A DNA stretch of 35,833 bases from contig CAIQJJ010000418.1 in the NCBI GenBank assembly GCA_903872065.1, positions 1 to 35,833 on the forward strand. Direction: 5' to 3'. A program made the position numbers and the translations under genes. Shown here piece by piece: positions 4,470-28,464 of this stretch. Below the pieces are notes generated by a model, which saw only the letters and a program-made list of their open reading frames with translations, did not search any database and had not been told where the DNA came from. This stretch comes from an uncultured Anaerolineales bacterium. Lineage in GTDB: Bacteria > Chloroflexota > Anaerolineae > Anaerolineales > UBA4823. The stretch's first letter is position 1. The number at the start of each line of letters is the position of its first letter.

Positions 4470-5531
4470 TTATTTCTTTGCCTGGGCCAACAATTTCTCA
4501 CATTCGGCCTGGTATAAAGCGGCGATCGCGGCATTGTGAATGATCAGCGCATTCTCATCGTTGAGCGTTTCGGCGCGTTGGGTGAAGTTGTATGAGCCAG
4601 TAATCACCGTCTCCCGGTCAATCACAATCACCTTATCGTGCATATTGCGCGGGGTAGCATCCAACCACACATCCAGGCCGGCCATGCGCAAGCGGTCATA
4701 CTCATCGCCCGTGTTGGCTTTGACCTGGAGTTTTTCAAAGACTCCGGCCACGCTGACGCCCACCTCGGCGCGCTCCAGCATGGCGTCGCCGATGGCGTCC
4801 GAAGTATAAGAATAGGCCAAAAAGCATACGCTCTCCTGCGCCTGCCCGATCTGCTCCAGGATGTGCGCCGCGACCCCGTCATCCGGCGAGAAATACACCT
4901 CCACCGGCGTCCCATGGATCGTTAACGAGGGGTAAGGATTGGCGGCGTGGTCGCGGGCGCCAAACAAATCCTCCACAAACATTTCTTCAAACTCGGTCGT
5001 ATAGTCCTGCGCCAGTTCGACGGAACGGATACGCATCAGGTTGTTGTTATTGCGATAGACATCGTTGGCGGTGTAGTTCATCGAACCCGTCCAGACCTCA
5101 TAGCGGTCAATCACGGTGAACTTATTGTGCATATAGCCCTCGCGCCGGTCGCCCAGGACAGGAATGCCGGCGTCTTTGAGCGCCTGCACCGCTTCTTCAT
5201 CCATATTATCGCTCTCAGTCGCCAGGCGCACCTTCACCCCGCGTTGGTGGGCGCGGATCAAAGCTTCGCCAATCGTCGCCAGGTCCAGCTCATACACCGC
5301 CACATCCACACTGGCGCGCGCCGCATCCATCGCCGCCGCCAACGCTTCGTCCGCCCCGCCCTCTAGAAATTCAGCGCCGGGGTCGGTGAAATAGATCGCG
5401 TACCAGGCTTCCTCGGTCGCTTCCGGCGCGCCTCCAGGCTGCGCATCCTGCGGCGCGGCCCTCTCGCTGCAAGCCCAAAGCGCCAGGACAAGCAGCATCC
5501 CCGCTAAAAAACGAGCATCGCCCGGCTTCAT
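4470..5531 (-). CDS. Phospholipase D-superfamily lipoprotein with two HKD motifs
   Basis: A 353-residue exported lipoprotein: signal peptide with a lipobox ending at Cys21 (LALWAC), a short Pro/Gly/Glu-rich linker, then two PLD-like half-domains. Both catalytic motifs are complete: His135-x-Lys137-x4-Asp142 followed by GSMNYT, and His298-x-Lys300-x4-Asp305 followed by GSYNFT. It should therefore be an active phosphodiesterase or transferase acting outside the membrane on phospholipid, nucleic acid or another phosphodiester. The substrate cannot be read from sequence; Nuc-like and cardiolipin-synthase-like members share this fold. The ATG at 5531 lies 9 bases after the stop of the preceding zinc-ribbon gene, so it is probably the last gene of the operon that starts with the acetyltransferase. 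Confidence 0.9.
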   Translation of the reverse strand: MKPGDARFLAGMLLVLALWACSERAAPQDAQPGGAPEATEEAWYAIYFTDPGAEFLEGGADEALAAAMDAARASVDVAVYELDLATIGEALIRAHQRGVKVRLATESDNMDEEAVQALKDAGIPVLGDRREGYMHNKFTVIDRYEVWTGSMNYTANDVYRNNNNLMRIRSVELAQDYTTEFEEMFVEDLFGARDHAANPYPSLTIHGTPVEVYFSPDDGVAAHILEQIGQAQESVCFLAYSYTSDAIGDAMLERAEVGVSVAGVFEKLQVKANTGDEYDRLRMAGLDVWLDATPRNMHDKVIVIDRETVITGSYNFTQRAETLNDENALIIHNAAIAALYQAECEKLLAQAKK

Positions 5532-5540
5532 TCAGCAGTT

Positions 5541-6077
5541 CTACGGCAAAATCCACAAAACCGGATCCCCAAGCTGCAAGTTCACCTGGAGTTCCTTCAG
5601 CTTATCCGGGCGGTCTGCCTCAATCGCCATGGCAATGAACTGGGCAATCGCGGTCACATCTTCCAACGAAAGCGTCACCGCTTCAAAAGGCGCCGGCGGC
5701 CCGGCTTCCAGCGTGGGCGGATGAGAGACAAAGGCGCTGCCCACCTTGAGCAAGGTTTCAAGCGGCAGGGTATAGGCCGGGATGAAAAAGCGCCGTGAGT
5801 CTCCCCAGAATTTTTCCGCTTCAGCGCTCTGCGAGCCGGAATAGGTTTTGCGTTGAAAACGGGCCTGTCCATCCACTACCCAATAAGGCTTGCCAGGCTG
5901 GTTCAGCGGAATTCCAGAGGAATAATGCACTTCCAACCGCGCCAGACCCTCCCGTTCATCCAACCTTTGCCCCTCGCCGCACTGCGGACAAACCCAGGCC
6001 GCCTCATCCGGGTTGGCTGGCAGGCGCGTCGCGCAATTCAAGCACAGCAGAGGGATTAACTCAATCGGTCGAGCCAT
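5541..6077 (-). CDS. Soluble zinc-ribbon protein (third ribbon gene of the operon)
   Basis: A 178-residue protein with an N-terminal zinc ribbon, Cys12-x2-Cys15-x14-Cys30-x2-Cys33, the same spacing as its two upstream neighbours. The remainder has no membrane segment and no motif I recognise: an aromatic-rich middle (PYWVVDGQARFQRKTY, RRFFIPAY) and a C-terminal part that looks alpha/beta. The ATG at 6077 is chosen because it places the ribbon at the very N-terminus as in the neighbours; it overlaps the previous gene by 22 bases. The open frame extends to 6107, but those codons lie wholly inside the upstream gene. Function is unknown. The aromatic-rich middle resembles regions that follow the ribbon in the neighbours, so it may be a cytosolic partner of those membrane proteins. 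Confidence 0.82.
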   Translation of the reverse strand: MARPIELIPLLCLNCATRLPANPDEAAWVCPQCGEGQRLDEREGLARLEVHYSSGIPLNQPGKPYWVVDGQARFQRKTYSGSQSAEAEKFWGDSRRFFIPAYTLPLETLLKVGSAFVSHPPTLEAGPPAPFEAVTLSLEDVTAIAQFIAMAIEADRPDKLKELQVNLQLGDPVLWILP

Positions 6078-7108
6078 TTTTCCACCTCCGTCACCTGGGT
6101 GATCCAATCGAACGAGTTCTCTTGGGATTTCTTCGACTTAAACTGGCGGTACTCATACTGCTCGCCATAACGGAATTTTCGGTAAGCAAAGCCCATCAGG
6201 GCAAAACCGGCCACCAGCACGCCCAGCGCCAGGAGGAACAACCCACCCGAGTCGTCGCTATCCGAGGCGTGCAGCGCAATATAAAAGGCCAGCGACGAGC
6301 CGTCAATCGCGGTAAACGCTCCCGCCGCCATGCCCAGCACCAGGATCGCGGCGCGGTAGAGCGTGCTGCCAGGCGCTTTGCCATACAGCGTTTGCCCGGT
6401 CACGCCGTCCACCACCACCTGAAACGAGCGCCCCTTGTACAGGTAGCGCAGCACCCACAAAGGATAGTAAACCAGCCCCAGGCGCTGCCGGATGAAGCGA
6501 ACAAAGACCTGCGAAATGCGATCCAGCTTAGCCGCCCGGTGCACCACATCAATAAATTCCTTCTCCGCGTTCGAGCGAGCTTCACTGGCCGAGCCGACCG
6601 GCTCAAAGACCATCCCCTGCTCATGCAGCGCCTCGGCGTCAAACGGCTCCAAAGTCTGGTCTGAGATCGGTACCCGCTCCACCCCAAACTCGCCCACATC
6701 GCACGCCGCGCCGTTCCAGCTTAAATCTTGCACCACCTTCACCTCGCGCGGTTCATAGCGCTTGTTGTCGCCGCTGCCCACCTGCTTTTCGCCAAAGACC
6801 CAGCTCAACACGCGCGCCCAGCCGGTCCAAAACGGCAGATAGGCCACAAAGGCCTCGGCCAGGGTAGATTTGCTGACCGTCCCCCCGTCAATCTCATTGT
6901 GACTCTTGAGAAAAGTCTTCAGCGCCTGCACCGCCTGCTCACGCTGGACGCGCTGCGGCGCTTGATAGCGCCGGATGCCGCGCTCGCCGCGCACCATCGA
7001 ACGCAGGTCGCAAAACGGGCAGCGCACGATCACCTGCCCCTCAGGAATTGGCGTCATCCCCCCGCAGTTCGGGCAGGATAAGCCATGAGTCGCTTCAGGT
7101 TCAGCCAT
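6056..7108 (-). CDS. Membrane-anchored zinc-ribbon protein B
   Basis: A 350-residue protein. The N-terminal zinc ribbon is Cys12-x2-Cys15-x14-Cys30-x2-Cys33. A large soluble middle contains AYLPFW, then PLWVLRYLYKG, then VVVDGVTGQTLYGKAP. Two hydrophobic helices follow (about 258-278 and 294-316), then a basic C-terminal tail rich in Lys/Arg/Tyr. The PLW...Y.Y.G...V..G.TG block is shared with protein A (7137-7934), so the two are paralogues. I recall similar blocks in bacterial zinc-ribbon membrane proteins loosely annotated as PriA-like; no true helicase motif is present. The start at 7108 puts the ribbon at the N-terminus; the frame is open further upstream to 7189 but there overlaps protein A. 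Function is unknown. Confidence 0.82.
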   Translation of the reverse strand: MAEPEATHGLSCPNCGGMTPIPEGQVIVRCPFCDLRSMVRGERGIRRYQAPQRVQREQAVQALKTFLKSHNEIDGGTVSKSTLAEAFVAYLPFWTGWARVLSWVFGEKQVGSGDNKRYEPREVKVVQDLSWNGAACDVGEFGVERVPISDQTLEPFDAEALHEQGMVFEPVGSASEARSNAEKEFIDVVHRAAKLDRISQVFVRFIRQRLGLVYYPLWVLRYLYKGRSFQVVVDGVTGQTLYGKAPGSTLYRAAILVLGMAAGAFTAIDGSSLAFYIALHASDSDDSGGLFLLALGVLVAGFALMGFAYRKFRYGEQYEYRQFKSKKSQENSFDWITQVTEVEKWLDRLS

Positions 7109-7136
7109 AGGTATTCTCCACGCTGCTTGATCGCCG

Positions 7137-7934
7137 CTAGACTTTCGCGGCAACCCAGGCAGCCACGGCAAACAGCGTTGGCGCGGCAATCACCCCCAAC
7201 CCACTGCAGGCCAGCAATCCCAACATCATTCCACTCCCGCCGGCGATGGCGCCGATCACGGGGAAAGTCGCCAGGCACAGAAAGACCACCGCCGCGGCAA
7301 TCCCGGCGACCAGGTAAGGCGCTTCGGACTTGGCCGGGAAGAGGTTAGCCAGCACCGCCCCCGTACCGGCCTCGACCAGCGCCGTATAGGTCTTATCTTG
7401 AAACGTGTATTTGCAGGTAAATAGAGGGATATGCACCAACGAACGTTCAACAATTTCGTTGAGCGGGGTTCCGCGCCCGCTCAGCCAGCCCAGGGCGGCT
7501 TGCAAAGGTACCGTCGGGGCCTGCGCTTCCGCCTCCAGGTCATCCTGGTAGCGGCGCAGATCGCCGGCCAGCAGTTTGAGCGATTTGATCTCACTGACCG
7601 AGGTAGCGGCGGCCGGCTCCAGGAATAATTCTTCTTTGCCGGCCGGCGTGCGCCGCTTAAACAGCCAGACCGGGAAGTAAGCAAAGGCGATGCTGGTCAG
7701 GCGCGATTTCTTATCCAGGTCTTTCACCGTCTGATTGCCTGCCATCCAACGCGCCAGCGCGCCGCGCGCCTTGGCCTCGTCCAACGTGGGCGCCAGGTAC
7801 CAATGAAATACCACCTGCGCCTTATCCACATACACCGTGGAGGAGCAGTAGGGACAGGTAACGAACGACTGCCCCTCATCGAGATGCAGTTCGCCGCCAC
7901 ACTGGGTACAGTTAAGGGTAGATGCAATCTCCAT
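7137..7934 (-). CDS. Membrane-anchored zinc-ribbon protein A
   Basis: A 265-residue protein: zinc ribbon Cys9-x2-Cys12-x14-Cys27-x2-Cys30, a soluble region with AYFPVW and a coiled-coil-like Leu/Glu/Arg segment, then IPLFTCKYTFQDK and VEAGTGAVLANLFPAK, and a C-terminal pair of hydrophobic helices (about 209-265). The order ribbon, (A)Y-x-P-x-W, P-L-x4-Y, TG motif and helical hairpin is the same as in protein B. It lacks protein B's basic tail. It follows the acetyltransferase by 11 bases and precedes protein B by 28 bases. The orientation expected from these features is ribbon and middle in the cytoplasm with a membrane hairpin at the end. No function can be assigned. Confidence 0.84.
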   Translation of the reverse strand: MEIASTLNCTQCGGELHLDEGQSFVTCPYCSSTVYVDKAQVVFHWYLAPTLDEAKARGALARWMAGNQTVKDLDKKSRLTSIAFAYFPVWLFKRRTPAGKEELFLEPAAATSVSEIKSLKLLAGDLRRYQDDLEAEAQAPTVPLQAALGWLSGRGTPLNEIVERSLVHIPLFTCKYTFQDKTYTALVEAGTGAVLANLFPAKSEAPYLVAGIAAAVVFLCLATFPVIGAIAGGSGMMLGLLACSGLGVIAAPTLFAVAAWVAAKV

Positions 7935-7945
7935 GCGGCCCTCTT

Positions 7946-8518
7946 TCAGCCCAATTCATAATCCTCTCGCAGCAGCCCGTACAGGTAGGTACCGCTGAAA
8001 CTCCCATCGGGATAACGATGGTTCTCGCGCAAATGCCCCTCACGCAGAAATCCGCAGCGCTCAGCCACGCGCTTGCTGCGCAGGTTGGTATCATCGCACT
8101 GCAAACGGACGCGGTGCGCATCCAGGCATTCAAAGATCAGCTTCACCACTGCCCGCACCGCCTCGGTCACATAGCCCTGCCCTTCGTGATCCTGATCAAC
8201 GATATACCCCACCTCAAATTCAGGCGTCTCCCAATTCACCACCCCCACGTACACCTGGCCGACAAATTCACCGCCCGCTTTTGCAAACGTCCCCAGGAAG
8301 AAAGCCCGCCGCTGATCCCACTCATCGGACAAATCCAACACCACCGCTTCGGCCTCGGCTTCATTCTTCGGCGAAAGGATCACATTGCCGGCCTCGTAGC
8401 GCTGCAAATGGGCGCGGTTCTTTTGCCCGGCCGCGTAATACAGCGGCCCATCGCCGGCCTGGTAGCGGCGGAGAATCAAACGTTCAGTCTCAAAACGATC
8501 GGGAAGCGTAAAACTCAT
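7946..8518 (-). CDS. GNAT acetyltransferase, RimJ/RimL-like
   Basis: A 190-residue single-domain N-acetyltransferase. It starts with the RimJ/RimL-type LPDRFETERLILRRY strand. The acetyl-CoA-binding motif A reads VDQDHEGQGYVTEAV (Gln/Arg-x-x-Gly-x-Gly/Ala type), and motif B contains the usual N-x-R-S-x-R-V-A-E-R-C-G-F pattern (NLRSKRVAERCGF). Such enzymes acetylate protein N-termini or small amines; the substrate is not predictable. A clear ribosome site (AAGGTGA) and a -10 box lie just upstream, making it the first gene of a five-gene operon with the zinc-ribbon proteins and the PLD lipoprotein. Whether it modifies one of them is open. Confidence 0.9.
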   Translation of the reverse strand: MSFTLPDRFETERLILRRYQAGDGPLYYAAGQKNRAHLQRYEAGNVILSPKNEAEAEAVVLDLSDEWDQRRAFFLGTFAKAGGEFVGQVYVGVVNWETPEFEVGYIVDQDHEGQGYVTEAVRAVVKLIFECLDAHRVRLQCDDTNLRSKRVAERCGFLREGHLRENHRYPDGSFSGTYLYGLLREDYELG

Positions 8519-8650: not shown

Positions 8651-11600
8651 CTAGATACGCTTCTTGCTTGCCATCCGACAAATTTCCAAGAACGCCTGCA
8701 CTACCGCCGGGTCGAATTGTTTTCCGCTCTGTTTGCGGATGTATTCCATTGCCCTTTCTGTTGACCAGGCAGGGCGATATGTGCGATCTGAGATCAGCGC
8801 GTCCCATACATCCACAATGGCAAAGATGCGCGCCTCGAATGGGATTTCCTGGCCTTTCAAACCACGTGGATAGCCCGTGCCATCCCATTTTTCGTGGTGA
8901 CAATAGGGAATCACTATGGCCGAGCGCAGGTATTTGATCTGATTGAGCAGGTTGAATGCGTATTGAGGGTGCCGTCGCATGATTTCCCATTCCTTCTCAT
9001 CCAATTTTCCTTTTTTGAGCAGGATGGCGTCGGGGATGCCCATTTTGCCAATATCGTGCAGCAGCGCGCCGCGGCGGATATTTTCCAAATCCGCCTCGTT
9101 TACCCCCATCAACCGCGCTAGCTCGACCGTCCTCTCCACCACGCGCAGTGAATGGCCCTTGGTTTCGTAGTCGCGCAGTTCGAGCGCGTTGGCCCAGCCT
9201 GCGAGCGTGGTGTTGTAGGCCAATTCCAGTTCGGCAGCGTCTTTCACGGTTTGCTCATACAGCGTGGCGCGATGAATGGCGTTGGCGATAAAATTGGCGA
9301 TGGCCGCCAGAAAACGGACGTCGGCTTCTAATATGTCCGTTTTGCGCCCAACCCAGATAAAACCAATCAATTTTTCCTGAGCGCTGAGCGGTACGCCCGC
9401 CGCGCCACGGACGCCATCCCGCGCCCATTCGGGGTAGGTCAGGTTGGGGTCATTCTGCAAATCGTGGGTATGATACGGCTGGCGCGTCTGGCTGATGATG
9501 GCGTTGATGCCAGTGCCTGGCTTTTGTCGCGCACCGCTTAAACTTTTCCAGACTCCCTCCGCAACTTCGACAATCACGTCGCCGGTCAGCGGTTCGATAA
9601 TCTCGATGGTGACTGCATCAGCACTGATCAGGTTGACAATCTGCCCGGCAATGACGGGCAGCATTTCGACCCGGTTCGACGCGGCGCGAAGCGCCTCGCT
9701 GAGCACCGCAATGGATTCCATCTCCCGCTCGCGTTGTTTGCGGTCGGTCACATCATGGACGATGTTCATCACCGCCGGGCTGCCTTCATACTCAATCATT
9801 TGTGACGTAAACTCAGTGTAGAGGCGCCGCCCGTCTTTATGGGCCAGGATAGCCTCGAATGTGGTGAAACCTTTGGTCATGAGTTCGGCTTGCCGCGCCC
9901 GCAATTGCTCATGAGTTGCTTCCGGCTCAAGGGTTTTCGGAGTTAGGCGGAGCATTTCCGCTTTGGTGTAGCCCAGAATGGCATGAGCCGCATCGTTCAA
10001 CTCGACGAAGCGCTGCGGCCCTTGTTCTGCGGAGACAGAAAAAATGGAAATCCCATCTTTGTTGACACGGAACAGCTCGCGGTATTTCTTTTCGCTCTGC
10101 GCTATTTTTGCCTCCGTTGCTTTGCGCTCGGTGATGTCAACAAACGTAATGACCGCGCCAGTGATTTGTTCCTGCTCGTAAATGGGTGTGGTGGCATATT
10201 CAACCGGGAAACTGGTGCCGTCTTTGCGCCAAAAATTTTCATCCGATATGCGCGAGGGAGTTCCATTTTGCAGCGCAATATTGGACGGGCAAGCTTCAGG
10301 TGGGTAGGGTGTGCCATCTGCGTGGGTGTGATGCCAGATGGCGTGACTGTTTAGGCCGATGAGTTCGGCGGGGTCGTAGCCCAACATGGCTGCGGCCGCC
10401 AGGTTGACAAATACGTGGTTGCCATCCGGGTCAATGCCAATAATCCCCTCGCCCGCCGCGTTTAAGATGAGGCTTTTTTGCTGCGCGAGGCGTTTCACCT
10501 CTTCTTCCGCCAGTTTACGTTCGGTAATATCGCGGCTGGCAACCACAATCTCCTGCACATCCGGATGATTCAGCAAGTTTTGTGCGGTGGTTTCCAGCCA
10601 CCTCCAGGTTCCATCTTTGTGCCGGATCCGATATTTCGCTTTGATCGACAGACCGGGATGTTGAACCACTTGCTGCCAATACTCGCGTATCCTGGCCGTA
10701 TCATCCGGGTGGATGGTTTCAAACCCGCTATGCCCCACCCGCTCCTCATCGGAATAGCCGTTGATGCGGCTGTAGGATGGGCTGCGATACGAAATCACGG
10801 CGTTGGCGTCCCCAAACAGGATGCCGTCGTTGCTGTTCTCCACTACGGCACGAAACTTGGCTTCGCTGCGGCGCAGCGCATTTTCGGCTGCTTTGTGTTC
10901 AATATCCTGCGCAATGGACTTTAGCCCAAAAGCGATATCGCCCGCCAGTTCGGACAGCAGGCTGACTTCCTCCTCGTTGAAAATATTCGTTTGGTCGGCG
11001 TACACAATCAAAATGCCGTACACTTCTTGTTCGTACAGCATGGGAATGGCAATCGTGCTTCTAAAATGCGTTTTTTCGATTGCCTCCACCCAGGGCGCGT
11101 ACCGTTCATCGTTGAGCATATCCTGGCAAATCACAGTTTGCCGGGTGCGGAGCGCCTCCACGCCCGGCAGTTTGACGCCCTGCTCCGGCGTCACAGTGGC
11201 CCGGATATGGTCTATGAGCGACTGGCCTTCACCGGCGAACGTTCGGGGTGCCAACACATGCCCCCCGAATTGACCAATCCAGACAAAGCGGTAGCCGCGC
11301 GTGCGCAGCAGGATTTGACAGGCCTCGTCCAACAAACGCTGCGCATCCTTCTCTCGCGTAATCAATTGATTCACATTCCGCACCGCGCGCAAGACTTGGT
11401 TGAGATGTTGAAGCCGTTGTTCGGCGGCGTGTTTATAGAGCGCCATCTCCAGGCTGGCGCGCAGCTCGCGCTCGCGCACCGGCTTGGCGAGGTAGGCATA
11501 CGCCTCGGTGACTTTGGCCTTTTGCAGGGTGATTTCGTCGGTGTGGGCGGTCAGGTAAATGACCGGCGTATTCTGCTGTTCACGGATTTTTGCCGCCGCT

Positions 11601-11800
11601 TCGATGCCGTTCATTTCGCCGCGCAGGCGAATATCCATCAGGATGGCATCCGGTTTTTGCGTAAAAGCCAGGTTGACGGCGTCACTGCCGGTGGCCGCCA
11701 GGCCGACCACCTGGTATCCCATGCGGGTTAATAGGTTTTCCAAGTCCATGACCAGGACGGCATCGTTTTCGACAATCAGAATGCGAGAAGATGCGTTCAT
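8651..11800 (-). CDS. Receiver-GAF-PAS3-GAF-HD-GYP protein, predicted cyclic-di-GMP phosphodiesterase
   Basis: A 1049-residue soluble signalling protein. Residues 1-125 are a receiver with Asp56 as phosphorylation site and Lys106 conserved. Next come a GAF domain (about 140-300), PAS domains at about 310-430, 440-560 and 568-690, and a second GAF (about 700-850). An HD-GYP domain (about 865-1040) ends the protein. The HD-GYP has HDIGK (His915-Asp916), His944, the His968-His969 pair and DGTGYP (973-978), so the metal-binding residues look complete. HD-GYP enzymes hydrolyse cyclic di-GMP to pGpG or GMP. The gene follows a HisKA_2 kinase by only 5 bases, the likely phosphodonor. It is the last gene of the large sensory cluster and its only recognisable output domain, which suggests the whole cluster may feed into cyclic di-GMP turnover. 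Confidence 0.93.
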   Translation of the reverse strand: MNASSRILIVENDAVLVMDLENLLTRMGYQVVGLAATGSDAVNLAFTQKPDAILMDIRLRGEMNGIEAAAKIREQQNTPVIYLTAHTDEITLQKAKVTEAYAYLAKPVRERELRASLEMALYKHAAEQRLQHLNQVLRAVRNVNQLITREKDAQRLLDEACQILLRTRGYRFVWIGQFGGHVLAPRTFAGEGQSLIDHIRATVTPEQGVKLPGVEALRTRQTVICQDMLNDERYAPWVEAIEKTHFRSTIAIPMLYEQEVYGILIVYADQTNIFNEEEVSLLSELAGDIAFGLKSIAQDIEHKAAENALRRSEAKFRAVVENSNDGILFGDANAVISYRSPSYSRINGYSDEERVGHSGFETIHPDDTARIREYWQQVVQHPGLSIKAKYRIRHKDGTWRWLETTAQNLLNHPDVQEIVVASRDITERKLAEEEVKRLAQQKSLILNAAGEGIIGIDPDGNHVFVNLAAAAMLGYDPAELIGLNSHAIWHHTHADGTPYPPEACPSNIALQNGTPSRISDENFWRKDGTSFPVEYATTPIYEQEQITGAVITFVDITERKATEAKIAQSEKKYRELFRVNKDGISIFSVSAEQGPQRFVELNDAAHAILGYTKAEMLRLTPKTLEPEATHEQLRARQAELMTKGFTTFEAILAHKDGRRLYTEFTSQMIEYEGSPAVMNIVHDVTDRKQREREMESIAVLSEALRAASNRVEMLPVIAGQIVNLISADAVTIEIIEPLTGDVIVEVAEGVWKSLSGARQKPGTGINAIISQTRQPYHTHDLQNDPNLTYPEWARDGVRGAAGVPLSAQEKLIGFIWVGRKTDILEADVRFLAAIANFIANAIHRATLYEQTVKDAAELELAYNTTLAGWANALELRDYETKGHSLRVVERTVELARLMGVNEADLENIRRGALLHDIGKMGIPDAILLKKGKLDEKEWEIMRRHPQYAFNLLNQIKYLRSAIVIPYCHHEKWDGTGYPRGLKGQEIPFEARIFAIVDVWDALISDRTYRPAWSTERAMEYIRKQSGKQFDPAVVQAFLEICRMASKKRI

Positions 11801-11805
11801 ACGGT

Positions 11806-13413
11806 TTACCCTTTCACATCAAATACGATTATAACCATTGTCCCCGCGTCCGAGTTTGTGCGGATGGTTCCGCCCAGCTGGTGAGTGGCCCATAACCTGA
11901 CCAATCGTAACCCCAGCGATTTACCCGCATCCCGCTTCGGTTCAGGCGGCAGCCCCATCCCGTTATCGCTGACGGTCAGGTGGCAGGCGTCGCCCTCCAG
12001 GCGCATGGTAATGGTCACGGTGGGTGCTCCCGGATAGCCGGGCGGGAAGGCGTGTTTGAGGATATTGGTGAATAATTCGTTCACAATCAAGCCGCAAGGG
12101 GTGGCATGGGTGACATCGAGGAAAATGGGAGCGTCGAGTTTTATCTGTATGCCACCTCTTCCAAACGCATCCAACACGCTGGAGGTCAGCAATTGCAGGT
12201 AAGGCTGCATATTTACCCTGGACAGGTTTTCCGACTGGTATAACTGTTCGTACACCAGCGACATGGTGCGCGCCCGACCCTCAAGGTCCATGAGGAACTG
12301 CCGCGTGATTGCATCACCCACCGTGTCGGATTGCATCTTAATCAAGGCAATAATCGCTTGCAGGTTGTTCTTGACGCGGTGATGGACTTCGCGCAGCAGC
12401 GCTTCTCTTTCTTCAAGCCTCGCGCGCAACTGCTCCTCCATGTGCTTGCGTTCGGTGATGTCGCGGTGAATAAAGAGGGCGCTTCTTACCTGCCCCTGTT
12501 CGTCGAATTCAGGCACGCCGCGCGAATTCAAATAAACCGTTCCGCTGGGAGCGGGCATGGAGGTTTCAAATTCCACGGGCTGCCGCGTTTCGAATACGCC
12601 GCGGACGATGCGCTCGGAAAATTCGAGCTGCTCTGCTGCCATCGTGCCAATTTCACGATGGGACTTGCCCAGCAGCGCTTCGGCCGAACCGTGCACCATG
12701 CTTTCATAGGCTTGGTTGATGAACACATGCCGCAGGTCCCGGTCAAAACGGGCGATAATATCGGGCGTATTTTCCACCAGCGTTTTGAATTGTTGCTCAC
12801 TGGCGCGCAGGGCTTCCTCGGCGCGCTGGCGTTCCACCAATTCCTGCCGTAATTGAAAGTTATTCTGGAACAAGTTCTCCGATAAAAACCGTGACATGAA
12901 CGCCGTCAGGATAATCAACATGGCGGTAGAGACGAAATCGCCCGGCACGCTGCGCACCAAAACCTGCGGCGTGAACGCGCCCGCCAATTCCCCAAAACAC
13001 AGCCAGGCGGCGCAAGCCACCGCATAAAGGGTCAGGAAAATCATCGTGCGTTTGCGCGTCACCATGCTTGCCACAATGAGCAGGGCAGGAAAGCCCAGAT
13101 TGCTGATATTGTGGATGCCCAGACTCAAGGTTGCCACGACGGTGAGGATGGAAAACATGAACAGGGACAGGAAAACGACCGCCAGTTCGAATTTTTCGCG
13201 GCGCACCAGCATAAACGTGAAAATTGTGACGGGGATGCCCAGGATAATAATGAGCGCAAACGTCACATCATGGTTGGAGAGCGCCGCCAGTATGCCAATG
13301 ACCTGGCCGATAAAAATCGCAAACGTGAATTGAGAGAGAATCCTGGAAACGCGCAGGGTATCTCCATAGGTGTCCAATGGATGGAATTTCTTAAGGAGTT
13401 TTGAGTTCAACAT
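11806..13413 (-). CDS. Membrane histidine kinase, 5-6 TM + PAS + HisKA_2
   Basis: A 535-residue sensor kinase. The N-terminal 175 residues hold five to six hydrophobic helices of an uncharacterised membrane sensor. A short coiled coil (about 185-205), one PAS domain (about 205-325) and a HisKA_2/HATPase module follow. The phosphoacceptor is in LLREVHHRVKNNLQ (His344 or 345). ATP-binding boxes are VNELFTN (N-box), SDNGMGL and GLRLVRLWATHQLGG. HisKA_2 kinases form a group separate from the classical HisKA type. The membrane region, catalytic region and their order closely resemble the preceding 1271-residue kinase, so the two are tandem duplicates. The five-base gap to the receiver/HD-GYP gene makes that protein the likely partner. 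Confidence 0.92.
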   Translation of the reverse strand: MLNSKLLKKFHPLDTYGDTLRVSRILSQFTFAIFIGQVIGILAALSNHDVTFALIIILGIPVTIFTFMLVRREKFELAVVFLSLFMFSILTVVATLSLGIHNISNLGFPALLIVASMVTRKRTMIFLTLYAVACAAWLCFGELAGAFTPQVLVRSVPGDFVSTAMLIILTAFMSRFLSENLFQNNFQLRQELVERQRAEEALRASEQQFKTLVENTPDIIARFDRDLRHVFINQAYESMVHGSAEALLGKSHREIGTMAAEQLEFSERIVRGVFETRQPVEFETSMPAPSGTVYLNSRGVPEFDEQGQVRSALFIHRDITERKHMEEQLRARLEEREALLREVHHRVKNNLQAIIALIKMQSDTVGDAITRQFLMDLEGRARTMSLVYEQLYQSENLSRVNMQPYLQLLTSSVLDAFGRGGIQIKLDAPIFLDVTHATPCGLIVNELFTNILKHAFPPGYPGAPTVTITMRLEGDACHLTVSDNGMGLPPEPKRDAGKSLGLRLVRLWATHQLGGTIRTNSDAGTMVIIVFDVKG

Positions 13414-13431
13414 GTTTGACTTCCGTTCGCG

Positions 13432-16400
13432 TTATCCATTCAAATCAAAAACAATGACAAAATTTGTGCCCGTTTCCGTTGAAATGTCCAACCTGCCGCC
13501 CAGTTGGTGGGTGGCCCACAACCTGACCAGCCGCATCCCCAGCGATTTACTTGAATCCCAAGCCTGGTTACGTGGCAAGCCCACGCCGTTATCGCCGACG
13601 CTCAAGCGGCAGATATCGCCCTCCTGCCGCATGGCAATCTCCACCCGGGGCGCATTTTGATACCCGACTGGAAAGGCGTGCTTGAGAATATTGTTCAGCA
13701 ATTCGTTGACAATCAGACCGCACGGCATGGCCTTTTCCATATCCAGCGTCACCGGCGCTTCAACGTTCAGTTGGAGCGCGCTGCGCCTGCCAAACGCTTC
13801 CAGCACATGGGAAGCCAGCTGCTGCAAGTATGATTCCATGCTGACTTTCGACAGGTTTTTGGCCTGGTACAACTGTTCATACACCAGCGACATGGTGCGC
13901 GCCTGTCCTTCCAGTTCCTTGAGGAATTGCCGCGTTTCATCGTCGTGGATGGCTTCGCGGCGCATTCTAATCAACGCCATAATGGCCTGCAAGTTGTTCT
14001 TGACGCGATGATGCACTTCGCGCAGCAGCGTCTCCTTCTCTTCGAGCGCTGCGCGCAATTTTTCCTCCGCCTGTTTGCGTTCCGTGATGTCTTGCAGGAT
14101 GCCTATCACCCCAATCCGCTGGTTATGCCCGTTGTGAACCTGGACCGCCGAATCGGCCACCCAGCGCGTTTGGCCGTCGCGCGTTAAAATGCGATAGTCG
14201 CAGGCCCAGTGGGAAATATTACCAGATTCGCTCAACCTGCCAGCGCTTTCCGTTGTAAGATGAGCCAGGTCTCCGCGCATGACGGCTTCCTGTTCCAAGC
14301 CGTCAAAGATGGCGGGGGTGATTTCCGCGGCGGAGTACCCGGTCAATTGACGTATCCCATCGCCCATAAACGTGTAAGCTTCCAAACCTTTTTCGTAGTC
14401 GCGATAATATGGCACCGCTCCGGCTGCCGTAATGGCTTGCCGGTAGCGCGCCTCGCTCAGTTGCACGGCTTCTTCCGCCTTTTTTCTTTCGGTGACATCG
14501 CGGTAATTGACCACGATTGCGCCCACCGCCGGGTCGTCCAGGCAGTTGTTAACAATGGCTTCCGTCCAGCGCCATGAGCCATCCAAGTGACGCAGGCGAA
14601 ATAACCCGCTGCGGCGGCTGCCGGGCTTTTGGGCGACTTCCGCAAAATCCCGGCTGACCCATTCCAGGTCGTCCGGGTGCATGATTTCAAACAGGTTTTT
14701 GCCAAGAAACTCGTTGAAGCCATAGCCAAGCATATTGGTCAAGGACGGGCTTTCCCACAACAACTTGCCGTTGACATCCAGCAGTGAAATATAATCCAGG
14801 CCGTTTTCAATTAATGCCTCCAGGCGACGTTCGCTGCGCTGTACTTCGCCGTACAAGCGCGCATTTTCCAACGCGATGGAAGCCTGCCCCGCGACGGTCA
14901 TCAGCAATTCGATATGGTGCTGGTCGTAAGCGTATTCCCGCTCGTAATCCTGGTGCGCGATGACCCCGATGACTCGCTCTTCGATGCGCATGGGGACGCC
15001 CACGAAGGAGCGCGACGGCGTGCCAATCAGGTCAATCCCAAGTCGACGGAACTCATCGTCATTCCCCTGCCTGAACAGCACGGGCGTATTATGGCGAATG
15101 ATGTAATCCGTGATGCCGTTGCTGAGTTTGCGCCCAACCGGGTCACGCCGTTGCCCATCCATCATGTAGATTGGGAAAGAAATATACTGGTTGTCCGGGT
15201 CATAAAGCGCGATGTAGAGGTTGCGATTATCCAGCGCCTGCCCAATCCCAGTATAGATGCGCTCCAGGATTTCCGCTGGCTCGGCCAGTTGGTTGAGTTC
15301 CTGCCCGAGCTGGTTCAGGGTGGTCAGTTCGGCGTTGCGTTGCACGAGCGCCTCCTCGGCGCGCTTGCGTTCGGTGATATCCAGTTCAAGCCCGTCCCAC
15401 AGCACGTTCCCCTTGGCCGCTCGGCGCGGCGCGGAAATGAGCAGGCTCCAGCGGCTGGTTCCCGAAGGCAAGCGGATTTTGACTTCCGTGCTGAAGGGCA
15501 CCATGTGCGCAAGCGCCTGGGCCTCCTGCTCCACCACCCTGGACTGGTCTAATGTGTCAAGATGCTGGTAGATCAGGCTGGCGTCCTGATAAACCGCTTC
15601 GGCAGTCAGCTCGTGCAATGTTTCGATCCCGGCGCTGACGTATTTGAACTGGCGCGCCTGGCCGTCTTTGCCCATATCCAGTTGGTAAACCATGCCGGCT
15701 GGCAGGTGGTCGCTCAGGTTGCGCAAGCGCAATTCACTCTCCTGCAGCTCCTCTTCGGCGCGTTTACGGGCAATGGCAAAAGCCGAAAGGTTGACAATTT
15801 GCTCGATGGCGCTCTGGTACGGCGCCATCTCCACGCGGGACAGGATGACGATGGCTCCCAAATGTTCCCCCTGGTGAACGAAACCGATGGCATACACAGC
15901 TTTGACGCGCAGCAGTTTTTCCACCGCCACGCACAACGGGCGCGGCGCAAACGAAACCAGGATGGCATGCAGCCCAGCATCCAGCCGTTCCAGCTTGCTG
16001 CTGCGATAGACGCGCAACTCGTTGTGCGTCATGCTGGCAACGGGATACGGTGTATCGAGCAGATTCCTGCCAAAGATAGCCGAGATTTTTTCCATCGGCA
16101 CGTCGAGGCCGTGATACCCCATCGCGCGGATGACCTGGTCGGATTCGTCCAGCAGGCTGACGCCGGTGACGCAATCGCCGATCAATTCCTGCACTTTTTT
16201 GGATGCCAGGGTGTAAATTTCTTCCAGCGTGGAGGGCCGCAGGAGCGCCAGTTGAACATCCGAGATGATTTGCGCGGCGCGTTCTGCCTCTTTCCTGACC
16301 GTGACATCGCGCATGATGCCAGCCCTGCCGGTGACATTGCCAGCGGCGTCATGTTGAAGCCGGCTCGTTATTTCCAACCACTTCCTTTGCCCGGTTGAGC

Positions 16401-17247
16401 TGACAATCCGAAATGCGGCCAGGGGAATGTCATCGGTCATCTGGTGCGAGAGCAGGCTGGAAAGCATTGGACGGTCAGCAGGATCAGTCATGGCTGACAT
16501 GAATTCCGAGATATGCTTTGAGACGAATTGTTGAGGCTCATATCCAAACATAGAAACCCGTGAACTGAGGAATGTAATCCGGCCGTCAACATCCAGCGCA
16601 AAGACAATATCATCAATATTTTCGACCAAATCCCGGTACTTTTCCTCGCTGGAACGCAGGTTGGTTTCGGCTTTTTCGCGCGCCTCGTTGCGCTGTTGCG
16701 CCAGGCGCAGGCTTTTGCGCATATTCTCGGCCAGCAAATCCGTTGCCAGGATGATGACCCCCATGATGACAGCGATGCCGATAAAGTCAGTCACCCACGT
16801 ATCCGCCGGGGTGGGTGTGTACCAATGATACACTTCACCGAAGACCAGCCATCCCAGGGAGGCCAGCGAAAGCAAGGATAGAACGATGAAGTCACGGCGC
16901 TGCATGAGCAAACTGGCGATGACAACTATTCCGGGATAGGTCAGGATGACAATATCCCGGATGCCCTGGCCGATGGTCGCCAGGATGTTTGTTATCACTA
17001 AAACTGTCAGCACCACGAGCAAGCGGCTGTAGCGCAGGTATCCGCGGGCCAGCAATCCCAAAGCGGCAAGCATCAACAAGCAACCAGCCAGGGGAATGAC
17101 GAATAAATTTGCGTCTTTCCAATATAACGACATGGCCATAATCACCGCGTATGCCGCCAGCAGTGAAAAAATAATGGTCAGAATCACCTGTGCGGCGCGC
17201 TGGTCTTCATCGCTTTTGAAGACGTTTTGTAAAAATGGCATTTTCAT
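13432..17247 (-). CDS. Large membrane histidine kinase, TM + PAS/GAF/PAS/GAF/PAS/PAS + HisKA_2
   Basis: A 1271-residue hybrid sensor. Five to six membrane helices (about 20-175) are followed by a coiled coil, PAS (about 200-320), GAF (335-495), PAS (505-630), GAF (645-800), PAS (810-925), PAS (930-1060), and a HisKA_2/HATPase module with LLREVHHRVKNN (His1079 region), VNELLNN, VGDNGVGL and GMRLVRLWATHQLGG. There is no receiver domain. It must integrate a membrane-derived signal with several cytoplasmic ligands, whose identity the sequence does not reveal. The start at 17247 is preferred because it lies 4 bases after the stop of the 60-codon stub (17252-17434), indicating coupling; the open frame extends to 17304, inside that stub. 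The shorter neighbour at 11806 is its paralogue without the extra PAS and GAF domains. Confidence 0.92.
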   Translation of the reverse strand: MKMPFLQNVFKSDEDQRAAQVILTIIFSLLAAYAVIMAMSLYWKDANLFVIPLAGCLLMLAALGLLARGYLRYSRLLVVLTVLVITNILATIGQGIRDIVILTYPGIVVIASLLMQRRDFIVLSLLSLASLGWLVFGEVYHWYTPTPADTWVTDFIGIAVIMGVIILATDLLAENMRKSLRLAQQRNEAREKAETNLRSSEEKYRDLVENIDDIVFALDVDGRITFLSSRVSMFGYEPQQFVSKHISEFMSAMTDPADRPMLSSLLSHQMTDDIPLAAFRIVSSTGQRKWLEITSRLQHDAAGNVTGRAGIMRDVTVRKEAERAAQIISDVQLALLRPSTLEEIYTLASKKVQELIGDCVTGVSLLDESDQVIRAMGYHGLDVPMEKISAIFGRNLLDTPYPVASMTHNELRVYRSSKLERLDAGLHAILVSFAPRPLCVAVEKLLRVKAVYAIGFVHQGEHLGAIVILSRVEMAPYQSAIEQIVNLSAFAIARKRAEEELQESELRLRNLSDHLPAGMVYQLDMGKDGQARQFKYVSAGIETLHELTAEAVYQDASLIYQHLDTLDQSRVVEQEAQALAHMVPFSTEVKIRLPSGTSRWSLLISAPRRAAKGNVLWDGLELDITERKRAEEALVQRNAELTTLNQLGQELNQLAEPAEILERIYTGIGQALDNRNLYIALYDPDNQYISFPIYMMDGQRRDPVGRKLSNGITDYIIRHNTPVLFRQGNDDEFRRLGIDLIGTPSRSFVGVPMRIEERVIGVIAHQDYEREYAYDQHHIELLMTVAGQASIALENARLYGEVQRSERRLEALIENGLDYISLLDVNGKLLWESPSLTNMLGYGFNEFLGKNLFEIMHPDDLEWVSRDFAEVAQKPGSRRSGLFRLRHLDGSWRWTEAIVNNCLDDPAVGAIVVNYRDVTERKKAEEAVQLSEARYRQAITAAGAVPYYRDYEKGLEAYTFMGDGIRQLTGYSAAEITPAIFDGLEQEAVMRGDLAHLTTESAGRLSESGNISHWACDYRILTRDGQTRWVADSAVQVHNGHNQRIGVIGILQDITERKQAEEKLRAALEEKETLLREVHHRVKNNLQAIMALIRMRREAIHDDETRQFLKELEGQARTMSLVYEQLYQAKNLSKVSMESYLQQLASHVLEAFGRRSALQLNVEAPVTLDMEKAMPCGLIVNELLNNILKHAFPVGYQNAPRVEIAMRQEGDICRLSVGDNGVGLPRNQAWDSSKSLGMRLVRLWATHQLGGRLDISTETGTNFVIVFDLNG

Positions 17248-17251
17248 AGCC

Positions 17252-17434
17252 TTATTCCATTCTTTTATATTTTGCAAAAAGGGGGATATAAAAGCCCGTC
17301 GCAATGATCAATGCGAATACAAAATATAACCCCACGGTGTTAAATGTCTGCGCCTGGTTGGTCTTTTCCTCGTCTCCCGGAAAAACGGGCGGAGCGAGCC
17401 AATGTTTTAGTTGGTTTGGCAGTTGGAATTTCAC
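17252..17434 (-). CDS. 60-residue single-helix membrane stub, relic of a sensor N-terminus
   Basis: A short protein: HWLAPPVFPGDEEKTNQAQ, then one hydrophobic helix (LYFVFALIIATGFYIPLF) and a basic end (KYKRME). The WLAPPVFPGDEEKT segment is, from memory, the juxtamembrane N-terminus of multi-helix Chloroflexota histidine kinases, where several more helices follow. Here a stop codon comes after the first helix. The next gene begins 4 bases later with a comparable N-terminus of its own (FKSDEDQRAAQ), so this is not simply that gene's missing start. It starts one base after the stop of the receiver gene. It is probably the remaining head of a deleted kinase, though the tight spacing and intact frame leave room for a real small membrane peptide. 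Confidence 0.6.
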   Translation of the reverse strand: MKFQLPNQLKHWLAPPVFPGDEEKTNQAQTFNTVGLYFVFALIIATGFYIPLFAKYKRME

Positions 17435-17435
17435 T

Positions 17436-17822
17436 TTATGCGCTCATATTTCGGTGGAACCGTTTGAAAGGCACATAATCCAGCAGCATGTCTTTGGGGA
17501 TGATGGCTTTAATGCCAGACTCTTTCACCAGTTGCGGCGAAGCAGGCTTGACATCGCTGGTCACGCCAATAATCCATAAAGTCGGGTCCCATTCAATGAG
17601 TTCCTGCGCGGTTTGAACGCCATCCATGTCGGACAGGTTGATATTCAAAACGACCAGGTCGGGACGCGCCTGCTGGCAAAACGCGAGCGCGTAACGCCCG
17701 TTGGGAACCATACCCACCACTTCCACGTCCACGTCCGTCAACGCGGCAAAAAATAGACTCAGAGTCTTGCGCCACTCTAAATTATTGTCAACAATCACAA
17801 CGCGAAATTTTCTGTTTTTCAT
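17436..17822 (-). CDS. Pseudo-receiver protein (phosphoacceptor Asp replaced by Asn)
   Basis: A 128-residue single receiver domain. Conserved receiver features remain: Asp12 of the acidic pocket (VIVDNN, with its neighbour changed to Asn), the Thr of IGVTSD after strand 4, and the Lys of IIPKD. At the position of the phosphorylated aspartate the sequence reads PDLVVLNINLSDMDG, so residue 60 is Asn. Phosphorylation at that site should be impossible, so the domain would be locked or regulated otherwise. Start: GTG (17825) and ATG (17822) are adjacent; ATG 17822 is preferred because it overlaps the preceding stop as TGATG. There is no output domain. It sits between a truncated receiver and a membrane stub, so decay is as plausible as adaptive loss of phosphorylation. 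Confidence 0.85.
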   Translation of the reverse strand: MKNRKFRVVIVDNNLEWRKTLSLFFAALTDVDVEVVGMVPNGRYALAFCQQARPDLVVLNINLSDMDGVQTAQELIEWDPTLWIIGVTSDVKPASPQLVKESGIKAIIPKDMLLDYVPFKRFHRNMSA

Positions 17823-17944
17823 CACAAACCCAAATCTCCGTTGGCATCCCAGACGGTATCAAACCCCACACTCTCAAGTCGCTTTTTGAAAATCGCACCG
17901 AGATTGGGGTCATCTTCGATGATGAGGGCGAGAGGGTGTGTCAT
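17822..17944 (-). pseudogene. Truncated receiver domain (40 codons)
   Basis: ATG at 17944 overlaps the preceding kinase stop as ATGA and opens a frame encoding MTHPLALIIEDDPNLGAIF, then KKRLESVGFDTVWDANGDLGL, then a stop. This is the first strand, helix and second strand of a receiver, including the acidic pair Asp11-Asp12; the part that carries the phosphorylated Asp, the Thr and the Lys is missing. It closely matches the start of the intact receiver at 20535-20894 (LAFIIEDEPDLALIF). A complete receiver needs about 120 residues, so about two thirds are gone. It is probably the relic of the cognate regulator of the kinase at 17941-20493. Confidence 0.8.
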
Positions 17945-20493
17945 ACAATCTTCTCCTGCGGCTGGATGATAGGCAGGCGGATTACAAACGCACTACCCTG
18001 GTTTGGCTCACTTTGCACTTCGATAAAACCACCCATCAGGTCCACGAGCTGCTTGACGATGAATAATCCCAACCCGGCGCCACGATTGTCGCGGGTGATT
18101 TTTTGGTTAAGTTGCTGGAAGGGCAAAAAGATATGCTGTTGCGCTTCGGGGGGAATGCCGATGCCCGTGTCCGTCACTTCCAGGCTCCATTGATCGGACA
18201 TGGGCTGATGGAAGCGGATATTCACGCTGCCGGTTGGGGTAAATTTAATGGCGTTGCTGGCCAGGTTTTCCAGGATTTGCCGGAGGCGTTTTTCGTCGCC
18301 GTATAATTTGGCGGGGAAGGGAGGAACAATCTCTGTTTTCAATTGCAAACCCTTCTGTTGGGCGAGCGGCGTCAAATGGTCGTTGACCGATTGCAGCAAC
18401 CCCTCCGGGGCAAAGACCGCAGGCTTCAAATCCAGGTTGGCGGCTTCAATCTCCGCCGCATCGAGCAGGTCGTTTACAATCCCGGTAAGATAATTGGTGC
18501 TTTCAACGATTTTCTGCATTGCGTCGCGTTGTTCGGCATTGATTTCGCCAAAGACTTCGGCCTCCACCAATTCGGCGTAGCCCAGCACACCGCCCAGGGG
18601 GGTGCGCAATTCGTGGCTGACGCGCGCCAACAGGCGAGTCTTGAAGCGGCTGGCTTCCAGGGCCTGGTCGCGCGCGGCGGCCAGGTCGCGGGTGCGCTCC
18701 GCCACGTGTTGTTCGAGCAGGTCGCGTTCCTGCTGGAGCAAGTTGAGGGCTTGCGTTTCCGCCTGCCAGGCGCGATTCACGTTGCGCAGCAAGACGGTGA
18801 TGGCGGCAATCAAGCCGGAGGCCGCCGCCGTATACGTTACCAGGGTGATGAACGCGCTGCGCAAATCGGGCGGGGCAATTTGGGCGGATGCAGCGCTCAC
18901 TGGCAGGTAAATTCTCTGCGCGATGAGAAACCCAAACACGGCCAGGATAACTAGCGAAATGAGCAGCGTAATGATTCCGCCGCGTAATTCTTCAAACAGC
19001 ACGCCGATAATTACAATTGCCACACAATAGATAAACGCCTCCACCGAATAACCGAAGTTGAGCAGCTCTACGATGGTCAGCCCGTACAGGGCGATGATGA
19101 AGATGGCCGTGCGAATGCTGAGGTGCAGAGTGCGCCATAACGCCAGTGCCCAAAAAATTGCCACAATCAACAGCGTCGAAAGGAAGTATTCGAACTGCCC
19201 ATACACGTTTGGCAAAGCCAGTACTGCCGCGAACAAACCCAGCGCGGCGGCAAAACGCAGGAAAGTAGTGAAGATTCTTTCGAGCGTGCGCGACCAGGCA
19301 GGGCTGTACCTGGGGTCGAGCGGAATATCCATTTTTATGCGTGGAGCAAAAAAAACCGAGAAGGATATTTTTCCCATCGCAGGCGGCTTTCCGTCTCGAA
19401 TAGTTGGATTCGCGTCGCCTGCTACTGAGGCTTGCGCGGTCATTCGCGGCTGCGAGAATTCCGCACCGCTCATGGACCTCAGCATAACGATGCGCCCCGT
19501 TGACTGACCATATTCATCTTTCAAGGGCGAGACACGCACTTCGTAAAGGCGTTTTGCTTCGCCCTCACCCACTGAAATTTCGGTTTCAATCTTCGGGCTG
19601 GCATGGAGCTGCTCAACCAGGGACTGCCAGGGGTGGAAGATTTCCTCCACACTTTTCCCGATGGCCGAGCGTACCGGCACACCGACCATTTGCGCGGCGG
19701 CGGGGTTGATGTCCACCACGTTGTCGCGCAGGTTGAGGATAATCACGCCGTCGCCCATCAAATCCATGATGCGGTCGCGGGCCAGCGGCTTGATGTCCAT
19801 CAAGCGAAATCCGAAGATGGCCCAGGTCAGTGCCGCAACAGTGACAGTAAACGCAAAGGGGGTCAGATCAAGGTATGGGATGGGACTTTTGCCCGTAATG
19901 TACAGCGCATTGCCGACCCAGGGGGCAAAAACCGCCACCAGCATAGCGATCATCTGGCCGCGATAGGCGCCCGGCTTGCGCCACAAAGCCCGCATGACCA
20001 GGAACGTGCCAGCGAGAAGAATTGCATAAGAATATCCGAAATGCACCCAGAACCATGCGCCGTAGGAAGTTCCCAGCGCGGAAAAATCGCCCTGCCGTTG
20101 AACGTGGTATGCGCTCCAGATTAAGCCATGCCACTGGTTTGTGAGGGCGAAGAGCAGCGTCAGACAGGGGATGAGGCCCAGCGCCGTCAGGAGGCGGCGC
20201 GATAACCATTGATTCAGGTTGGCGTAGGAAATGGCAAACACCAGCCAACCGTAGGGCACAAAAGCAATGCCAAAATATTGAATGGCGCCCCAGAAATATT
20301 TGGTCTCCAGGGTTGCGCCCATGATTTCCAGCGCATACGCAAAAGTCCACTCAAAGATGCTGACCGCCATCAACAGCAGCGCGTAAGCGCCATTGGCAGC
20401 GCGATACTTCCAGGCGTAAGCCAGCACGACGATGGAAACCAGGGCGGCAGCGATCAGCGGCAGGGCATAGGGCGAATATTCAAAGTTCATCAT
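17941..20493 (-). CDS. Histidine kinase with two membrane sensor modules (7TM + PAS + 6TM)
   Basis: An 850-residue kinase. Module one, about 5-235, is a seven-helix region of the histidine-kinase 7TM type, ending in WAIFGFRLMDIKP. A PAS domain follows (about 240-345). After a Pro/Gly/Ala-rich linker a second membrane module with about six helices (about 405-570) begins, unlike the first. A coiled coil (about 575-620) leads to a classical HisKA domain, LLARVSHELRTPLGG (His627), and an HATPase with NLASNAIKFTP, TDTGIGIP and GLGLFIVKQL. Having two separate polytopic sensors in one kinase suggests fusion of two genes. The start is ATG 20493; a TTG three codons upstream is less likely. The downstream receiver is only a stub, so this kinase may have lost its partner or may act on the complete receivers nearby. 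Confidence 0.9.
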   Translation of the reverse strand: MMNFEYSPYALPLIAAALVSIVVLAYAWKYRAANGAYALLLMAVSIFEWTFAYALEIMGATLETKYFWGAIQYFGIAFVPYGWLVFAISYANLNQWLSRRLLTALGLIPCLTLLFALTNQWHGLIWSAYHVQRQGDFSALGTSYGAWFWVHFGYSYAILLAGTFLVMRALWRKPGAYRGQMIAMLVAVFAPWVGNALYITGKSPIPYLDLTPFAFTVTVAALTWAIFGFRLMDIKPLARDRIMDLMGDGVIILNLRDNVVDINPAAAQMVGVPVRSAIGKSVEEIFHPWQSLVEQLHASPKIETEISVGEGEAKRLYEVRVSPLKDEYGQSTGRIVMLRSMSGAEFSQPRMTAQASVAGDANPTIRDGKPPAMGKISFSVFFAPRIKMDIPLDPRYSPAWSRTLERIFTTFLRFAAALGLFAAVLALPNVYGQFEYFLSTLLIVAIFWALALWRTLHLSIRTAIFIIALYGLTIVELLNFGYSVEAFIYCVAIVIIGVLFEELRGGIITLLISLVILAVFGFLIAQRIYLPVSAASAQIAPPDLRSAFITLVTYTAAASGLIAAITVLLRNVNRAWQAETQALNLLQQERDLLEQHVAERTRDLAAARDQALEASRFKTRLLARVSHELRTPLGGVLGYAELVEAEVFGEINAEQRDAMQKIVESTNYLTGIVNDLLDAAEIEAANLDLKPAVFAPEGLLQSVNDHLTPLAQQKGLQLKTEIVPPFPAKLYGDEKRLRQILENLASNAIKFTPTGSVNIRFHQPMSDQWSLEVTDTGIGIPPEAQQHIFLPFQQLNQKITRDNRGAGLGLFIVKQLVDLMGGFIEVQSEPNQGSAFVIRLPIIQPQEKIV

Positions 20494-20534
20494 AATGGTC
20501 AACGCTCAGGATGTGAGTTAGAGTCCCATGCCGA

Positions 20535-20894
20535 TTAACGACGAGCCAGCAAGCGCATGCTGAAGTCGCGCAGCTGGTGGTAACTGACCGGCTTGAGCAG
20601 CACGAGGTCGGCATACTCTTCGACCATGTACCTCATGTTGGCATCCGCCGTAGCGACGATGACCTTCGTGGCAGCCAACCGCGCGTCGTGGCGGATGTGC
20701 TGGAGAATATCCGCGCCACTCAGGCCGGGCAGGTGCATGTCCAACACAATCACATCGGGCGTGGTTTCCTTCAACCGGCTGACCGCCTCCAGACCGTCCG
20801 AGATGATTTCGATTTTCAGCCCCTCCGATTTCAGGGCTTTGGAAAAAATCAGGGCGAGATCGGGTTCGTCTTCGATAATGAATGCCAGTGTCAT
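20535..20894 (-). CDS. Single-domain response regulator (receiver only)
   Basis: A 119-residue stand-alone receiver. The acidic pair is Glu8-Asp9, the phosphorylation site is Asp52 (VIVLDMHLPG), the Thr of IVATAD follows strand 4, and the Lys of LLKPVS follows strand 5. There is no output domain, so it must act by protein contact or as a phosphate shuttle. Its ATG overlaps the stop of the Cache-type kinase upstream (ATGA), which is therefore its likely donor. A 41-base gap separates it from the double-module kinase downstream. It is the only complete single receiver of the cluster with a phosphorylatable Asp. Confidence 0.93.
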   Translation of the reverse strand: MTLAFIIEDEPDLALIFSKALKSEGLKIEIISDGLEAVSRLKETTPDVIVLDMHLPGLSGADILQHIRHDARLAATKVIVATADANMRYMVEEYADLVLLKPVSYHQLRDFSMRLLARR

Positions 20895-22702: not shown

Positions 22703-22718
22703 AATGTTCCCTTAAGGG

Positions 22719-23789: not shown

Positions 23790-23823
23790 TCGAGCCTCCG
23801 GATGTTAGAAATTCCACCCTAAT

Positions 23824-23851
23824 ATTATAGGGATAGCCCGAAGTTGAACAA
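23824..23851 (-). promoter_or_regulatory. Sigma-70 promoter at the head of the sensory cluster
   Basis: On the minus strand TTGTTC (23846-23851) and TATAAT (23824-23829, perfect) are separated by 16 bases. The start point falls near 23817, with GGAGG at 23795-23799 and the ATG at 23789. This is the only good promoter I found for the ten downstream reading frames, whose gaps are mostly under 45 bases. Confidence 0.62.
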
Positions 23852-23876
23852 TATGTCGTTTGACCACCCCAAGATA

Positions 23877-23900
23877 GCCAGGCAGCTATAGCCACCTGGC
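23877..23900. other. 24-base near-perfect palindrome between the LuxR gene and the sensory cluster
   Basis: Arms GCCAGG/CCTGGC flank an eight-base palindromic centre GCTATAGC, with two symmetrical dinucleotide mismatches. It lies 8 bases after the LuxR-type gene stop and about 26 bases upstream of the cluster -35 box. No T-tract follows on the minus strand, which argues against a simple intrinsic terminator. Its symmetry would suit binding of a dimeric regulator, such as the LuxR-type protein encoded next to it. Confidence 0.4.
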
Positions 23901-23907
23901 CAGTAGA

Positions 23908-24552: not shown

Positions 24553-24554
24553 AG

Positions 24555-28409: not shown

Positions 28410-28464
28410 AACGCTTCTCATTACGCAACTGACAGATCGCAGGAGCACTTCTAGATCAGTAGAT

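Follow-up and report, generated by a model that had tools for sequence, protein, structure and literature searches.

Three neighboring genes in a 35,833-nucleotide contig from an uncultured Anaerolineales bacterium (the whole stretch that we analyzed, hereafter the window) encode proteins, here called A, B, and C, that begin with the same zinc-ribbon pattern and lie between genes for an acetyltransferase and an exported enzyme of the PLD superfamily. The locus raises the question of what these proteins are related to and which of their neighbors belong with them. A preliminary description had read the ribbons and the flanking genes together as a coherent membrane-associated system with no known function.

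The five genes follow one another in close series on the minus strand in the order GNAT, A, B, C, and PLD lipoprotein (Table 1), with 11 bases between GNAT and A, 28 between A and B, and 9 between C and PLD; the 3′-terminal 22 bases of B are also part of C. The most probable start positions, 7108 for B and 6077 for C, fall inside the longest open reading frames. Each protein of the trio carries one N-terminal CX2CX14CX2C ribbon (A, CTQCGGELHLDEGQSFVTCPYC; B, CPNCGGMTPIPEGQVIVRCPFC; C, CLNCATRLPANPDEAAWVCPQC). Stop-free matches to this pattern in the window's six frames numbered exactly three, namely these ribbons, and none turned up in 200 composition-shuffled sets of the window's proteins. 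The four ribbon cysteines are invariant across the aligned orthologues (18 of A, 20 of B, and 18 of C), which bears out the identical spacing described earlier for three adjacent proteins. The X14 spacing also occurs in both ribbons of the Bacillus protein YdjG and of relatives of about 470 residues, and thus is not particular to the trio. Compared with Pfam and NCBIfam, A, B, and C matched zero families above cut-off.

Table 1. Genes of the ribbon trio and its immediate neighbors in the window.
Feature	Length (aa)	Coordinates	Strand	Content	Basis
GNAT acetyltransferase		7946..8518	-	Acetyltransf_3 4.2e-25	
Protein A	265	7137..7934	-	zinc ribbon 7845-7910, YdjG-like domain, C-terminal membrane segments	ORF
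Protein B	350	6056..7108	-	zinc ribbon 7010-7075, YdjG/YpeB-like domain, two-helix membrane hairpin	ORF
Protein C	178	5541..6077	-	zinc ribbon 5979-6044, soluble alpha/beta domain	ORF
PLD-superfamily lipoprotein, exported	353	4470..5531	-	two intact HxKx4D...GSxN motifs; PLDc_2 4.5e-47	

Profile comparison with hhalign aligned A and B at an E-value of 4e-22, and at 4e-14 (98% probability) once the ribbon had been removed. In a maximum-likelihood tree, which is to be read as unrooted and in which YdjG sits on a long branch, A and B each form one clade and are sister clades with support 100/98, together occupying one side of the 100/98 branch, with YdjG and the two-ribbon relatives described below on the opposite side. 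By hydropathy, both proteins have C-terminal hydrophobic segments and C has none, so the earlier assignment of A and B as membrane paralogues and of C as a soluble protein holds. The AlphaFold2 model of B (pLDDT 80) places hairpin helices at about residues 249–280 and 287–314, after the beta domain. Foldseek returned no match to this model in the PDB at E 0.001, and VIA-align gave mainly helix-hairpin rows, together with the C-terminal domain of YpeB (5boi; Z 6.5, 72 residues, 2.5 Å), a weak match to the beta domain of B whose score is below the reliable range, in the range of chance arrangements, and accompanied by unrelated rows; YpeB itself, unlike B, is ribbon-free.

The search with B also recovered proteins of about 430–530 residues with two CX2CX14CX2C ribbons, a domain in common with A and B, and a membrane anchor, which we collected in an alignment, A4. 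By hhalign, A4 matched B at 6e-26 and A at 1e-17, and the homology holds with the ribbons removed (99% probability for B and 97.5% for A). Using a published ydjG primer (PMC8581546), we found YdjG in Bacillus spizizenii, where its gene lies just downstream of pspA, and in B. tequilensis, where it also adjoins PspA. In BLASTP, the B. spizizenii protein matched a two-ribbon sequence in A4 (2e-34, 342 columns), and by hhalign it matched B at 9e-13 and A at 5e-9. YdjG carries YIPFW, PVWMVSYDY, and NGQTG, and the YxPxW, P-L-x4-Y, and TG motifs noticed earlier in A and B proved to be hallmarks of the YdjG/two-ribbon family, the first being kept in A and B and the second taking the form P-[LVI]-x3/4-Y there. 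Two ribbons are present in YdjG and in 15 of 16 two-ribbon relatives, and in 0 orthologues of A or B. Judged by sequence, A and B arose by duplication and are YdjG relatives with one ribbon; from their hhalign homology to A4 and YdjG and their place in the tree, we conclude that this duplication is old and took place within a single-ribbon branch of YdjG-like proteins.

YdjG has been described as having two ribbons, a YpeB-related domain, and a transmembrane segment (PMC11237479); we took the transmembrane segment from published work (PMC8581546), YdjG having fallen under the simple hydropathy threshold used here. Membrane recruitment of YdjI and PspA needs both YdjG and YdjH, and loss of YdjG/YdjH leads to deformed cells under alkaline stress (PMC8581546). 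Calling the trio a system of no known function was thus too strong, given that A and B are homologous to a studied envelope-stress protein (PMC8581546, PMC11237479). YdjG resembles A and B in the spacing of its ribbons, in its homologous domain with the three motifs, and in its C-terminal membrane anchor, but it has two ribbons and is a single gene that lies beside pspA, TPM, and SPFH genes in a pspA-ydjGHI operon. A and B, in contrast, have one ribbon, that corresponding to the first of YdjG being missing, occur as a pair with a soluble C alongside, and are found mostly in genomes without PspA and TPM.

The two-ribbon proteins of about 470 residues, which come from the same lineage (loci L044–L060), share with A and B the homologous domain, an equally spaced second ribbon, and the membrane anchor, whereas they differ in having two ribbons, other gene neighbors, and a position across the 100/98 branch. 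They occur alone, in a form with an N-terminal TPR-like region, or as tandem D1-D2 pairs that parallel A-B, and a search of the two-ribbon family against PDB sequences gave TPR and ribbon matches only. In the tandem D1-D2 YdjG-like genes (L050, L051, L052, L053, and L056), the second gene has a single ribbon, and this ribbon is more variable. A fused glycyl-tRNA synthetase alpha-beta gene, of about 1010–1030 residues, adjoins single two-ribbon genes in six genomes (L044, L045, L046, L047, L057, and L059), where the two-ribbon genes have the N-terminal TPR-like region.

The AlphaFold2 model of C (pLDDT 90) shows the ribbon followed by an alpha/beta domain. Foldseek found no PDB match to it at E 0.001, and VIA-align gave weak rows only, the best being ribbon matches to LysW (Z 3.8, 41 residues, 2.5 Å). 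It is possible, though we regard it as tentative, that C is a third YdjG-type protein that has shed its membrane anchor, making the trio a triplication instead of a pair with a partner. A profile of C that includes divergent members scored 94% against B by hhalign over the full length, and divergent C proteins have LPFW and YIPAW motifs. Without the ribbon, however, the C-B and C-A4 comparisons are insignificant (E 0.016 and 0.007), although better than the shuffles run, the best of which gave about 0.04. We therefore do not accept clear homology of C to A and B outside the ribbon; as far as sequence can show, the ribbon is its sole demonstrable kinship with them, and its descent from the A/B family is possible but unproven. 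Such a triplication would be compatible with the explanation that we favor below.

The search for B covered the window's family and order, 61 genomes in total, and the matches were taken with their surroundings. Orthologues occur in 19 of the 37 family genomes and in 4 of the 24 remaining genomes of the order, and in at least 4 of 400 genomes sampled evenly across the phylum, the window's genome counted; few candidates were scored per genome in that sample, which makes the figure a lower bound. A tblastn survey of gene order covered 27 contig stretches bearing the trio. A lies directly upstream of B in 24/24 testable loci and C directly downstream of B in 24/25, always on one strand and with frequent overlaps, in carriers from 19 genera, and the trio recurs in a distant family (L082 and L083) whose A and B proteins are 38–41% identical to those of the window. 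By linkage, A-B-C is an obligate three-gene unit. The exception, L022, has A and B without C, and the PLD and ATPase genes of that genome lie on another contig (G009:C234). In genome G035, the A gene is split near the membrane segments (L038:7428-8233; two tblastn pieces in different frames), owing to a sequencing error or because the copy is broken.

The two flanking genes fared differently in the survey. A GNAT gene adjoins A in 1 of 24 loci, that of the window's genome only, whereas a PLD gene lies within 2 kb after the trio in 13 of 24. Relatives with scattered ribbon genes that never neighbor PLD or GNAT genes had been named in advance as evidence against a joint system; this pattern was found for GNAT and not for PLD. 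The coherent membrane-associated system thus survives for A-B-C, with its strict adjacency extending to distant families, but not for the acetyltransferase, and the exported PLD enzyme is a frequent yet optional neighbor that has a pair of its own with an ATPase at loci lacking the trio. A system of five genes in which GNAT and PLD are permanent members, which the tight spacing in the window had seemed to suggest, is largely refuted by these counts and is scarcely credible.

Downstream of the trio, 14 loci encode a HerA/FtsK-type ATPase, and in five loci a gene for a beta-propeller (GSDH) lipoprotein stands between PLD or C and the ATPase. The ATPase (P0006) matched PF01935 (DUF87/HerA) at 1.9e-7, above its cut-off, and HerA chains were among its PDB sequence matches. 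Two HxKx4D motifs per protein are present in 16/16 PLD relatives checked, and most PLD orthologues have a lipobox (LWAC in the window's protein). The intact HKD motifs and the lipobox indicate that the PLD protein should therefore act outside the cytoplasm. Its best NCBIfam score is to NucT, at 66.7 of 297 bits and far under the curated cut-off; like NucT-type PLD nucleases it has HKD motifs and is exported, but unlike NucT it has two PLD domains per chain. Its substrate may be DNA or lipid. A 1251-residue "fusion" of beta-propeller lipoprotein and ATPase at L028 was rejected as an assembly gap, with ambiguous bases giving runs of X in the translation.

PLD and ATPase genes are also neighbors where the trio is absent or elsewhere (among other places G002, G003, G010, G017, G047, and G048; L084 and L089), and in G046 and G059 they are adjacent with the trio on another contig. 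This adjacency suggests that A-B-C, on the one hand, and PLD/ATPase, on the other, are separate units that came together in the window's lineage, the PLD/ATPase pair being older than its tie to A-B-C. The distant loci L082 and L083 have neither gene. No ATPase match was found in the window's genome (assembly 97% complete), so the PLD gene beside C is either a remnant of the joint arrangement or accompanied by an ATPase missing from the assembly. The pair, seen for example at L084 (6757-10544) and L089 (4839-8863), is independent of the trio and conserved across the order, an unusual pairing of an exported phosphodiesterase with a cytosolic, DNA-motor-like ATPase. A literature search for a ribbon/HerA/PLD unit gave nothing matching.

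To our knowledge, YdjG has so far been known solely for its accessory part in the PspA response to envelope stress. PspA matches were present in 3 of 37 genomes searched, among them 2 of the 13 carriers of the trio, leaving 11 of 13 carriers with no match; TPM (YdjH) was above cut-off in 0 of 37, and control genomes were positive in both searches. SPFH proteins occur in 36 of 37 genomes, none of them at a trio locus among the places listed, and pspA, TPM (YdjH), and SPFH (YdjI) genes were not recognized at the trio's loci. Strictly speaking, A-B-C does not qualify as a Psp system. It is also very unlikely that the trio is an ordinary envelope-stress module of the PspA/YdjG type, drawing on a PspA gene located elsewhere. 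In favor of this reading are the homology of A and B to YdjG and the PspA-family matches on other contigs of the window's genome; against it, most carriers have no PspA match, none has TPM above cut-off, and the partner genes were not recognized with the trio.

In the explanation that we favor, at a probability of about one half, A and B would build a platform at the membrane that faces the cytoplasm and has C as soluble partner, doing YdjG-like work outside any Psp system. Beta domains and membrane segments would hold A and B together, and their putative structural zinc ribbons would dock C and client proteins. The platform would serve envelope maintenance, as YdjG does in helping to anchor PspA and YdjI in Bacillus. 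C would stand in for the PspA, TPM, and SPFH partners, with the exported PLD lipoprotein and the co-encoded HerA/FtsK-type ATPase as possible further replacements in the window's lineage. Given the few PspA and TPM genes in carriers, the function could be unrelated to that of YdjG, and the HerA-type ATPase and nuclease-like PLD neighbors hint at work on nucleic acid rather than on the envelope.

That hint leads to an alternative that we consider unlikely, in which A-B-C supplies the membrane component of a machine that handles DNA for uptake or scavenging; the ATPase would move DNA at the A-B-C platform and the NucT-like PLD lipoprotein would cut DNA outside. The ATPase genes downstream of the trio, the motifs, lipobox, and NucT score of the PLD protein, and the persistence of their adjacency where the trio is elsewhere or absent speak for such a machine, but the window's genome has PLD beside the trio with no ATPase match, the distant loci have the trio without either gene, and the ATPase has a much wider distribution than B (53 versus 4 of 400 phylum genomes). 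Quite unlikely, in our estimate, is a two-sided membrane machine of an undescribed kind made up of A-B-C, the PLD lipoprotein, and the HerA/FtsK-type ATPase, which, if real, would combine a cytosolic DNA motor, a ribbon-bearing platform built on a YdjG-type heteropair, and a surface phosphodiesterase.

The trio, as paired single-ribbon YdjG relatives with a soluble partner of their own, appears to be a separate offshoot of a known family, and the occurrence of so strict a three-gene offshoot in bacteria mostly lacking PspA and TPM implies that membrane proteins of the YdjG kind work in other settings. A, B, and C offer a small, testable system for what the ribbon and beta domain do alone, and they tie to the membrane a widespread but unstudied pair, PLD and the HerA-type ATPase.

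Elsewhere in the window, translations of positions 8651-28448 show a series of genes, nearly all on the minus strand, for large PAS/GAF sensor proteins and for kinases, along with a response regulator with an HD domain, a LuxR-type regulator, and a lipoprotein of the solute-binding kind. Positions 28629-35609 encode a 2326-residue protein whose translation has many FG-GAP/VCBS-like repeats and LamG-like domains.
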